Shown here one piece after another: positions 3,995-52,167 of a stretch of DNA of 64,000 nt. Origin of the DNA: Halorussus ruber. GTDB lineage: Archaea > Halobacteriota > Halobacteria > Halobacteriales > Haladaptataceae. Each line of letters begins with the position of its first letter. Within the stretch, counting starts at the first letter, position 1. Where the stretch lies: contig NZ_ML219768.1 of the NCBI RefSeq assembly GCF_004765785.1, forward strand, positions 1-64,000, written 5' to 3'. The position numbers and the translations under genes were made by a program. The notes under the pieces were generated by a model. It did not search any database and had not been told where the DNA came from. It worked only from the letters and a program-made list of their open reading frames with translations.

Positions 3995-4153
3995 TGATTT
4001 TGCGATTCGCAACACTGCGAGCGACTTCTATGTCGCTCGTCTCTCCGCGAATCGCAAATCTGCTTCTCGGACGGATTTGAACCCTGCCAGAGGCAGCCCG
4101 CGCAGCGTAGCGAGCAGGAACCTCTGGCTCCGGTTCAAATCCGGGAGGCGGCA
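3995..4153 (+). repeat. tRNA-Phe-linked 3'-end repeat element with two nested cruciforms
   Basis: First hairpin: TGCGATTCGC (~4000) pairs with GCGAATCGCA (~4047) and encloses GCGAGCGAC/GTCGCTCGT. Second hairpin: CGGATTTGAACC (4072-4083), an inverted T-arm copy, pairs with GGTTCAAATCCG and encloses CCAGAGG/CCTCTGG. The element ends in a perfect 24-base copy of the tRNA 3' end (4130-4153 equals 3971-3994). The order hairpin A, hairpin B, tRNA tail matches the second tRNA-Lys unit at 52000-52167. Confidence 0.92.
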
Positions 4154-26944: not shown

Positions 26945-27001
26945 CTCCGGTTTCCGACTCCTCGATTTTTCGACCAACGCGAGACGGACAGCAGACGCTC
27001 G

Positions 27002-27368
27002 CGCTCGGTGAATCAACCGCCAGCGAACGCTCGGCCAATCAACCGCCAGCGAACACCCGGCCAATAACCACCGGCGAACGCTCGACTAGCCAATCCACCC
27101 TCCTGGCGGACTGAAAGGGCGAGCGGGGTTCGCGGGTCACGCGAGCGAAGCGAGTGTGACCTCGGAAGTCGCAGTCCGCGCAGGCCGCAGGCCGAGCAGA
27201 ACCGTCTTCCGGCGGCCGAAGGCCGTGGTCGTCTCAGCGACCCCTATCCGGAGCGACCGGAGGGAGCGGAGGATATGTCGCTGAGTCGCCGAAAATCGAA
27301 AATTTTCGAGATGACGAGCGCGTCGCGCTCGAACCACGACCGCGAACCGCGCGAGGGCTTTCGAAAAT
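27002..27368 (+). repeat. family 1 dispersed element, copy 1, with 26-bp iterons
   Basis: Three direct repeats of about 26 bases (27002, 27028, 27054; core CGCTCGGCCAATCAACCGCC) lead into the head GGCGGACTGAAAGGGCGAGC. The centre is GGTCGTCTCAGCG, CCTATCC...GGATATGTCGCTGAG. The tail is CCGCGCGAGGGCTTTCGAAA. Extra GC hairpins are inserted between centre and ends. A second, imperfect tail copy follows at ~27399. It fills the gap between the oxidase operon and the convergent gene at 27479. No gene lies in 26945-27478. Confidence 0.88.
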
Positions 27369-27478
27369 CTCGCTGTCTACTCCACTCCTCTGACTCTAAC
27401 CGCGAGGACTTTCGAAAACGAAGTCGTCACTCAATCGAATTGAACCAACCCAACACGAAGTATCCTCGAAGAAGCAGT

Positions 27479-28640: not shown

Positions 28641-28796
28641 AGCGCCGTCGCCAGGGCTCGAACTCGCCGAGATGTTCCGGGCGTGCGGCGCTTCGCGCCG
28701 GTCCGGGCGTGCAACTCGTCTGCTCGAGCCTGTCGAGTTGCGCTTTCACGCCTCGCAGACGACTCGCTACGCTCGTCGTGATTGCTCGGCGAGAGA
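28641..28796 (-). repeat. tRNA-Asn-linked 3'-end repeat element
   Basis: Read on the minus strand, downstream of tRNA-Asn. Hairpins come first, including GCAACTCG...CGAGTTGC. Next is GCCCGG, then GGCGC-GAA-GCGCC and GCACGCCCGG, and finally a perfect 23-base copy of the tRNA 3' end (28641-28663 equals 28797-28819). The GCCCGG core with its GAA-loop hairpin is shared with both tRNA-Lys units, with compensating stem changes (GGCCC/GGGCC versus GGCGC/GCGCC). Confidence 0.9.
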
Positions 28797-28798
28797 AG

Positions 28799-30394: not shown

Positions 30395-30655
30395 TTTCGA
30401 AAGCCCTCGCGCGGTTCGCGGTCGCTCTGCGGGATATTTCTGCGCTCTCAGCACCGCCCGCGCAGAAATAGTTGCCCGCAGAGACGACCACGGCCTTCGG
30501 CCACCGGCGGACAAACCGCGTCCGCCGAGCAGTCGTTCGCTTCGCTCACGACAACCGCGAACCCCGCTCGCCCTTTCAGTCCGCCAGGAGGGTGGATTGG
30601 TTAGTCGAGCGTTCGCTGGCGGTTGATGCACCGAGCGAAACGGCCGGTTGGTCAC
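30395..30655 (-). repeat. family 1 dispersed element, copy 2
   Basis: On the minus strand: iteron remnants (CGCTCGGTGCATCAACCGCC, CGCTCGACTAACC), head GGCGGACTGAAAGGGCGAGC, and an inserted hairpin with GGCGGACGC/GTCCGCC. The centre is GGTCGTCTCTGCGGGCAACT, ATTTCTGCG/CGCAGAAAT and TATCCCGCAGAGCGACC. The tail is CCGCGCGAGGGCTTTCGAAA. It fills the gap between the convergent cca and RidA genes. No gene lies in 30361-30724. Confidence 0.9.
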
Positions 30656-45569: not shown

Positions 45570-45866
45570 CGTAGTTCGCTCGGTGAGACAGACAACGTCC
45601 TGGTGGACTGAAAGGGCGAGCGCGGTTCGCGCAACGCTTGGTCGCTTCAGCGTGGCCCTATCTGGCGCGCGCAGAACTGCGCGCGCCAGATATCCCGCTG
45701 AGCGACCGTCACGCGAGCGAAGTCTTGCCGAGCGAAGCGAGGCAACGGCTCGGAAGACGCGGTTTGTCTTCCGGTGCGAGTGTGACCTCGGAAGTCACAG
45801 CCCGCGCAGGAGCGGAGCGACGAGCAGGAATGTCTTCCGGTGGCGAACCGCGCGAGGGCTTTCGAG
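45570..45866 (+). repeat. family 1 dispersed element, copy 3
   Basis: Iteron remnant (TTCGCTCGGTGAGACAGAC) then head TGGACTGAAAGGGCGAGC. The centre is GGTCGCTTCAGCG, CCTATCTGG...CCAGATAT and CCCGCTGAGCGACC with a GCGCGCGCAG/CTGCGCGCGC hairpin. A long insertion with GGTTTGTCTTCCGG hairpins follows, then the tail CCGCGCGAGGGCTTTCGA. It sits between the gnd gene and the 45958 gene. No gene lies in 45516-45957. Confidence 0.9.
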
Positions 45867-45957
45867 ACCGTAATTCCGACTCGACCGACTTCTCGAAGCA
45901 CTCTCCGCAAACGGTCGAGGACAAAACACTTACACTTCGACTGACGATTCGTCTTCG

Positions 45958-51753: not shown

Positions 51754-51866
51754 GGGCTGGTAGCTCAGTTAGGCAGAGCGTCTGGCTTTTAGCACGATTC
51801 ACCCGGGTCTTCCGGATGGTCGTGGAAGACACCAGACGGCCAGGGGTTCAAATCCCTTCCAGCCCG
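51754..51866 (+). tRNA. tRNA-Lys (UUU) with 39-base intron
   Basis: Acceptor GGGCTGG/CCAGCCC, anticodon stem TCTGG/CCAGA, loop CTTTTA...A with anticodon TTT (51788-51790). Intron 51792-51830 starts one base 3' of the anticodon (after A37). It forms a 7-base-pair hairpin, GTCTTCC/GGAAGAC, consistent with bulge-helix-bulge splicing. Discriminator G at 51866. Haloarchaeal tRNA introns are best known in Trp, Met and Gln, so Lys is less usual. Followed by two tandem 3'-end repeat units. Confidence 0.92.
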
Positions 51867-52167
51867 CTTCTGCGACGAACGAAGTGAGGAGCGAAGCGGC
51901 TACGAGGGATTTGAATGAGGCAAGTCGCATGCCCGGACCGGCCCGAAGGACCGCACGCCCGGACCGTCTCGGCGTAGTTCAAATCCCCTCCAGCCCGCTA
52001 CCTTTTGCGACGAGCAACACGGCGAGCGCCTCGTGCGCTCGCCACTCCGCGAGTCGCAAAGTACGATTCTGGAAGGATTTGAAGTAGACGAGTCGCACGC
52101 CCGGAATGGCCCGAAGGGCCACACGTCCGGACCGTCTCGGCGTAGTTCAAATCCCTTCCAGCCCGCT
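51867..52167 (+). repeat. two tandem tRNA-Lys-linked 3'-end repeat units
   Basis: Unit 1 (51869-51999, 131 bases) has an inverted copy GGGATTTGAA (51906), the GCCCGG-hairpin core, and ends in a copy of the tRNA 3' end with one mismatch (51977-51999). Unit 2 (52000-52167, 168 bases) has hairpin A (TTTGCGAC...GTCGCAAA enclosing GGCGAGCG/CGCTCGCC), an inverted copy GGAAGGATTTGAA (52071), TGGCCC-GAA-GGGCCA, and a perfect 23-base tRNA 3' end (52145-52167 equals 51846-51868). Confidence 0.93.

Follow-up and report, generated by a model that had tools for sequence, protein, structure and literature searches.

Palindromic units with direct and inverted copies of the tRNA 3′ end lie behind tRNA genes across haloarchaea

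Short palindromic units, each ending in a copy of the 3′ end of the tRNA gene in front of it, lie behind tRNA genes of Halorussus ruber and of haloarchaea at large. A full unit has the order 5′-[hairpin A]-[inverted copy of tRNA nt ~53–64]-[K hairpin]-[direct copy of nt 53–73]-3′, and because it sits directly 3′ of the tRNA gene the tRNA is left intact. Each copy is usually cognate to the upstream tRNA, and the two can pair with each other as a long stem with K at the tip. We give a probability of roughly 0.55 to the reading that these are palindromic elements, non-coding and non-autonomous, which occur throughout the haloarchaea and settle at the T-arm and 3′ end of tRNA genes; a mobile or mosaic palindrome of this non-autonomous kind is what we infer to be the best reading, with movement and mechanism deduced from sequence comparison. 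More tentatively, the units could form a new class of mobile palindrome that duplicates nt 53–73, writes a backward copy of the T-loop into its own stem and is re-tailored for each tRNA, carrying no genes and yet persisting across almost all haloarchaea. In the three genomes counted, 15–28% of tRNA genes are followed by such a tail, and the elements seem to be unnamed.

The window – the whole stretch of DNA analysed, comprising the first 64,000 nucleotides of contig NZ_ML219768.1 – carries two units in tandem behind a tRNA-Lys gene. A preliminary description had reported them as being 131 and 168 nt long, each with an inverted T-arm, a GC hairpin and a terminal copy, and a repeat finder together with the coordinates bears this out. 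The tRNA-Lys 3′ end occurs three times, at 51846, 51977 and 52145 (spacing 131 and 168 nt), the copies at the latter two positions being 92% and 100% identical over 24 nt; the units share a 96-nt core that is 88% identical, and the inverted T-arm pairs were recovered as well. The ARAGORN listing as run lacks the tRNA-Lys gene of 51754–51866. Similar elements had also been described at tRNA-Val, -Phe and -Asn, and one unit is present at each. The features are as follows, where R1 and R2 are covariance models built on hairpin B (the inverted arm, K and the direct copy) and on K alone.

51754–51866, + strand: intron-containing tRNA-Lys gene, the host from which the copies derive (RF00005, 57.8 bits)
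51867–51997, + strand: unit 1, 131 nt, with a degenerate 5′ hairpin region, inverted T-arm, K hairpin and terminal copy
51904–51989: R1 match in unit 1 (76.1 bits)
51905–51916, + strand: inverted T-arm copy of unit 1, nt 53–64, facing 51977–51988
51919–51974, + strand: K hairpin of unit 1 (R2 match)
51977–51997, + strand: unit 1 direct copy of tRNA-Lys nt 53–73, 20/21 identical
51998–52165, + strand: unit 2, 168 nt, with hairpin A, inverted T-arm, K hairpin and terminal copy
52004–52060, + strand: hairpin A of unit 2, with a T-run inside the stem and an internal loop (inverted repeat and fold)
52072–52157: R1 match in unit 2 (80.7 bits)
52073–52084, + strand: inverted T-arm copy of unit 2, nt 53–64, facing 52145–52156
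52087–52142, + strand: K hairpin of unit 2 (R2 match)
52145–52165, + strand: unit 2 direct copy of tRNA-Lys nt 53–73, 21/21 identical
2764–2885, + strand: tRNA-Val unit, 122 nt, copy 22/22
3995–4153, + strand: tRNA-Phe unit, 159 nt, copy 22/22
28643–28798, − strand: tRNA-Asn unit, 156 nt, copy 21/22

Searching the same genome with the tRNA-Lys region returned 12 places, all 12 of which are, by position, at or beside listed tRNA genes. The association with tRNA genes far exceeds chance. When the last 22 nt of each of 46 tRNA genes (taken from RF00005, which missed at least one more) were sought in the next 600 nt, a cognate copy with at most two mismatches in 22 was found behind 13 genes against 0.13 expected, and one with at most five mismatches behind 16 against 1.7 expected, the expectation coming from non-cognate tRNA ends sought in the identical downstream stretches. 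Inverted copies also tend to be cognate: with every arm placed at its best fit, 6 of 21 units have one with a single mismatch over 13 nt, against an expectation of 0.25 for one mismatch or fewer. A further tRNA-like gene, which RF00005 did not list, precedes tandem units whose tails are identical (G000:C10, ~203.6–204.1 kb, minus strand); a run of N in the assembly lies inside one of these units.

The limits of the duplicated segment were profiled in 37 of 39 units, leaving out one that lacks K and one whose ‘copy’ is a neighbouring tRNA gene. The segment starts at nt 53–57 and ends at nt 73; since nt 53–56 (GTTC) are the same in nearly all tRNAs, the exact first duplicated base cannot be told. 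From nt 57 on the direct copy has a cognate identity of 0.86–1.0, compared with a non-cognate identity of 0.29–0.44 at nt 63–71, and at nt 52 the values are 0.68 and 0.54, falling further upstream with no clear excess. The inverted copy, profiled in 130 units, was located by the generic motif GATTYGAAC, which gives the unit's own tRNA no advantage, and its cognate versus non-cognate identities are 0.87/0.58 at nt 57, 0.87/0.78 at nt 59, 0.77/0.50 at nt 62, 0.60/0.36 at nt 63 and 0.45/0.23 at nt 64. The inverted arm is imperfect, with a cognate signal that fades past nt 62–64, a point against the mobile reading.

Most units are predicted to fold as hairpin A followed by the long hairpin B, in which the inverted T-arm and the direct copy enclose the inner hairpin K with its core NNAGTCGCA...ACCGTCTNN. 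Covariance modelling of the unit, proposed earlier as a check, supports this fold. Two of the 22 units of the genome (L051 and L053) were dropped, and an alignment of 18 of the 22 was set aside for misplacing some arms; R1 was built on 10 of those 18. Across these ten units 92.6% of 190 cells are paired, six pairs have changed on both sides, and the covariation of 0.226 compares with 0.094 after shuffling and was reached by 0/500 shuffles, while the slid control is biased by the structure having been picked from the same 10 sequences. K alone, in the 15 sequences underlying R2 (four of them from outside tRNA loci), has a covariation of 0.351 against 0.133 shuffled, reached by 0/500, and a count of pairs changed on both sides that was reached by 43/500 shuffles. 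In a test of strand by wobble asymmetry, G.T and A.C mismatches number 67 and 49 in the T duplex, 3 and 4 in the K stem, and 12 and 60 in hairpin A, where the A.C excess seems by eye to come from the internal loop and so carries no weight as to strand. That the elements do not belong to a named class, as had been suggested, agrees with the searches made: in the window only tRNAs score above the Rfam gathering thresholds, the unit region gives two matches (E 3.8 and 4.4) far under theirs, and titles, abstract starts and passages of the mostly open-access literature searched contain no description or name of such haloarchaeal elements.

Stems that covary would also be seen if the units worked as RNA. 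The preliminary description had offered a structured RNA or a processing or termination device as one of two options, and we consider it the less supported one and, overall, unlikely. Its hairpins would protect, terminate or process the transcript, selection would keep the identity of the tail, and the inverted arm would prevent competition between the tail copy and the 3′ strand of the tRNA itself. By eye, T-rich starts follow the tRNA and again many of the copies, in keeping with such a role. A function as single-stranded DNA, however, predicts covariation equally well, and 33 of the 46 tRNA genes have no copy at two mismatches or fewer. Were the units an RNA device after all, they would be a class-wide addition to tRNA gene anatomy.

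For comparisons within the genus, 132 units were collected from 11 genomes, where they occupy 34 tRNA groups (one solely through a span to a neighbouring tRNA). Copies with more than four mismatches were not collected, eight of the genomes were covered solely around R1 matches, and two match regions, one each in G635 and G274, are absent from the set; among its members are two units that lack K and two spans extending to a neighbouring tRNA gene. Analyses of 130 units leave out two longer than 260 nt – one a neighbouring-tRNA pair, the other probably alike – and keep the two without K. Unit lengths are 102–253 nt, and the 21-nt copy is perfect in 94/132.

In favour of mobility, nearly the same core occurs with different arms. 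K cores that are 55/56 identical (up to 98%) are found in different species at different tRNAs, as where a tRNA with TTCGACTCCC has the inverted arm CTCGACTCCC and another with TTCAAATCCC has the arm TTCAAATCCC. When each unit was paired with its one best partner, and own and partner arms were each taken at their best fit, the inverted arm was closer to the own tRNA in 77 of 103 units and to the partner's in 10, with 16 ties; placing the arm by the own tRNA instead gives 79 better, 14 tied and 10 worse. The direct copy is closer to the own tRNA in 103/103, a result that is largely by construction, since this copy was the criterion for collecting units. K sequences carrying a rare insert, one from G147 and one from G176, align over 107 nt with 99 identities; the two tRNAs that they follow differ at nt 57 (G and A), and each arm matches its own nt 57. 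Cores homogenised by gene conversion while the arms stay put could produce the same picture, which counts against the mobile reading.

Kinship among the units weighs against a simple transposon. The nearest neighbour in A plus K is at the same tRNA of another genome for 39 of 130 units (4.7 expected), from which we take units to be often long-lived at one tRNA; it lies in the same tandem for 15 (0.4 expected) and at another tRNA of the same genome for 8 (13.9 expected), with no sign of a burst within one genome. Mean scores in the first three genomes are 66.6 at a shared tRNA, 39.8 within a genome and 40.7 where units have neither in common. When units at one tRNA were compared across genomes, only 22 of the 313 pairs were closer than 99% of randomly drawn pairs. 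Modules A and K occur in differing combinations: 10 of 56 pairs at different tRNAs that are similar in A are also similar in K, against a background of 796/8041, and this loose coupling makes the family a mosaic.

The excess of neighbours at the same tRNA and in the same tandem is also what gene conversion with local template switching would leave. Here a tandem duplication would arise at the T-arm palindrome, conversion would keep the tails cognate, and K and A cores would be exchanged by recombination between units in the polyploid haloarchaea. A single tRNA gene is followed by five tandem units, each with a perfect 21-nt tail (L404, G176:C1:1417742-1418451), and a G172 locus (L184, G172:C1:487702-487786 and downstream) has a tandem duplication that runs from the T-arm GTTC through ~80 identical nt of trailer and contains no K; both are readily accommodated by this explanation. 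So is the slow drift of the copies, which in the 28 of 130 units with a recognisable ortholog have 10 mismatches where the divergence of the bodies predicts 24.5, a deficit that suits conversion or selection alike and may thus equally be cited for an RNA device. Nevertheless, for its conserved core to be present at so many tRNAs, K must first have reached each of them; K is found outside tRNA loci, and cores 55/56 identical across species call for frequent conversion over ~55 bp of homology, for which reasons we regard conversion as a distinctly unlikely account of the whole.

Turnover of a unit can be followed at one tRNA-Leu in 18 congeners. Intact units are present in G172, G638 and G634, and in G634 another hairpin A, lacking a tail copy, comes after the unit; G635, G640 and G632 retain remnants of a similar hairpin A but no tail. 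The site is empty, with the trailer directly 3′ of the tRNA, in G374, G637, G000, G633 (with one extra base), G147 and G176, where the trailer begins TACGACCTTTTTATTG or close variants; in G172 and G638 a 160-nt unit follows the tRNA and is in turn followed by exactly that trailer. The trailer is diverged or truncated in G024, G162 and G636, and other flanks are found in G274, G639 and G384. Empty and filled sites with a target duplication, as expected of a non-autonomous mobile element, are thus both present. A tree of the upstream flanks, poorly supported in its deeper parts, places the empty G374 as sister to the filled G638 (support 0.994) with the remnant-bearing G635 next, which makes exact loss likely. 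Precise loss is seen at this tRNA at least as clearly as gain, a point against the mobile reading, and any single insertion here is presumed, as is the direction of change. The native tRNA-Leu trailer is itself a palindrome, CTTTTTAT...ATAAAAAG (G000:C1:113377-113433 and similar), with matches elsewhere in the same genome at C7:104460, C7:94681, C2:403303, C3:233215 and other places.

These loci bear on the RNA device from both sides. In its favour, hairpin A of the orthologous Leu units has compensated changes, with CGACGCGC/GCGCGTCG in G172 against CGGCGCGC/GCGCGCCG in G638 (pairing partly by eye). Presence at the same tRNA nevertheless varies between congeners, degenerate units and remnants exist, and K occurs in intergenic positions away from tRNAs. 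The other option of the preliminary description, a mobile element that restores tRNA 3′ ends, is the better supported of the two, given the polymorphism among congeners, the empty, filled and decayed sites, and the near-identical cores with cognate arms. Cognate tails in three congeners, presence that varies by species and the occurrence of K outside tRNAs point the same way.

A mobile palindrome of this kind might insert at a folded T-arm by strand transfer or copying, duplicating nt 53–73. The inverted arm would be copied from the target, through snap-back synthesis from the K hairpin or a later quasi-palindrome correction, and the agent may be an enzyme acting in trans or ordinary replication and recombination. 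Loss could proceed by recombination between the 21-nt direct repeats, which would restore the empty site exactly. tRNA genes are also hot spots of integration, and if the units are mobile they would account for part of the fast-changing DNA beside these genes; their cognate direct and inverted arms would then call for a new mechanism of insertion or copying, and we know of no transposon that has one. Passages of a study of Haloquadratum describe repeat-mediated deletion there, including at partial tRNA duplications (PMC3119063).

Units of this type are spread through the haloarchaea. R1 matches 374 of 391 genomes of the class at E≤1e-3, in 81 of 86 genera (11 candidates scored per genome; all 391 genomes were drawn from one order), and in a draw from the phylum 50 of 294 genomes match at E≤1e-6, 50/50 of them in that same order (15 candidates scored per genome). 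An absence of such copies from other haloarchaea, named earlier as a refutation, is contradicted by these matches and by two sets of loci found by hairpin or pattern and not by tail copy. Of 29 scanned loci of best R1 matches, four of them in congeners, 26 combine a tRNA and its cognate 21-nt copy (two mismatches or fewer). A 22-base pattern sought in named genomes gave 22 loci – in Haloarcula argentinensis, Halococcus morrhuae, Halohasta, Natribaculum and Halorubrum, among others – of which 16 have a same-strand tRNA just upstream by ARAGORN and 13 of those 16 (13/22 overall) a cognate copy at three mismatches or fewer; three further loci show by eye a cognate copy with an inserted base, and the other six include degenerate, truncated or interrupted cases. 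In the congeners G172 and G374, copies with at most 2/22 mismatches lie behind 10/46 and 7/47 tRNA genes, often at other tRNAs than in H. ruber. At two loci (L294 and L308) a tRNA-Asp gene is interrupted by hairpin B, ~50 nt into the tRNA in one and 10 nt in the other, which may be a real disruption; a reading as introns was rejected, both contigs being from one metagenome assembly in which misassembly or deletion is equally likely.

Several known systems share features with the units. At E. coli tyrT, tandem repeats of ~178 bp each contain 19 bases of the tRNA-Tyr 3′ end. This analogue, proposed in the preliminary description, holds for the tail copy: in both cases tandem repeats behind a tRNA each carry a 3′-end copy, a likeness of architecture. 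The units differ in being found at many tRNAs across a whole class, with an inverted cognate arm and conserved K and A hairpins. Integron attC sites are imperfect hairpins with unpaired bases, arranged in tandem cassette-like arrays; hairpins and tandem arrays are common to both, whereas the units have no cassette genes and do have 21-nt cognate copies. REP/BIME palindromes are short, imperfect, modular, tandem, intergenic and gene-less. The units, as short intergenic imperfect palindromes in many copies, are REP-like in this sense, and like REP/BIME and the small hairpin elements of PMC12306157, as characterised in the parts of that paper drawn on here, they are short, modular, tandem, intergenic and without genes, as is K. 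They are unlike REP/BIME in their tRNA-specific placement, their cognate direct and inverted target copies and the lack of a link to Y1 transposases: at E≤1e-5, PF01797 is detected in 13/18 unit-rich and 12/17 unit-less genomes, which is no association. A Y1 (IS200/IS605-type) transposase was rejected as the mover, 5 of the 18 unit-rich genomes being without PF01797, with help from another genome possible. Y1 was the sole family tried in the search for a mobilising enzyme, which found none.

Casposons have a related target. The casposase of A. boonei, according to passages of PMC6614799, reads the T-loop motif TCAAATC and duplicates 14–15 bp starting 8 bp further on, so that casposons and units have in common a tRNA 3′-end target, the reading of a T-loop motif (or its presence in the target) and a direct target duplication. 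In the units, however, ~21 nt are duplicated, with the T-loop included and the end at nt 73, whereas the casposon duplication of 14–15 bp lies downstream of TCAAATC. Membership among casposons was rejected on this ground and because 102–253 nt leave no room for a Cas1 gene. As regards the terminal inverted repeats of casposons, the single inverted pair noted in the units is that of the T-arm. In Methanopyrus kandleri a palindrome CGTTA(N)9TAACG stands ~10 bp behind about half of the tRNA genes; its authors saw it in no other genome and proposed a signal for 3′-end processing (PMC5217627). It resembles the units as a palindrome behind archaeal tRNA genes, but the passages on it mention no tail copy.

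Haloarchaeal elements targeted to tRNA genes likewise have a direct repeat of the 3′ end downstream and are lost between the repeats, but they are kilobases long and carry genes, whereas units of ~100–250 nt are gene-less and have an inverted copy (PMC3119063, in passages; PMC3623002). The units might accordingly be deletion remnants of integrative elements that use tRNA 3′ ends as att sites, which we hold to be highly improbable. Such elements do seem to use these tRNA ends: in Halobacterium sp. CBA1126 (L307, 1936-4210) tRNA-Lys and a partial tRNA copy flank a 342-aa ORF, from its translation probably a tyrosine integrase, and a unit comes next, a hint that the tail region doubles as an att site. 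This element, though, ends in a copy of ~29 nt that begins at the variable loop and has one inserted base, not in a copy of nt 53–73; the units are further set apart by the cognate inverted arm and the conserved hairpins, and they sit at as many as 34 tRNA groups. That they might be att sites of a single integrase element had been named earlier as a finding that would refute the observation; a unit of ~100–250 nt holds no integrase, and the probable integrase insertion differs from it. A tyrosine-integrase element, with an integrase gene between direct repeats, was rejected by unit size.

K is not confined to tRNA loci. Of 37 R2 matches in the H. ruber genome, 16 are not behind a listed tRNA, and two of these are in the window.

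27163–27212, + strand: K hairpin away from tRNA, inside another repeated element (R2 match)
45789–45840, + strand: K hairpin away from tRNA, inside another repeated element (R2 match)

The tRNA-Lys units gave no blastn match in plasmid and phage records. A 171-nt stretch around a non-tRNA K matches 25 plasmid records, 22 of them haloarchaeal and three from Paraburkholderia; several of the haloarchaeal matches span K and many only its flank, and the two haloarchaeal places inspected are both intergenic. Against phages the same stretch finds 17 Gordonia phages at E 0.5, which is chance level, and 44 stretches of viral contigs with a 15-base K pattern include three weak R2 matches (18–22 bits), no good sign of a viral K.

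The repeated element that holds the two K hairpins listed above is a second structured intergenic repeat, found in the window at 27085–27400, 45598–45880 and 30395–30605. Its stretch at 27000–27450 has no Rfam match above the gathering score. It follows the pattern GGACTGAAAGGGCGAG ... GATATGTCGCTGAG ... GAGGGCTTTCGA, has 93 matching pieces in the genome, and holds nested K hairpins in some of its copies.
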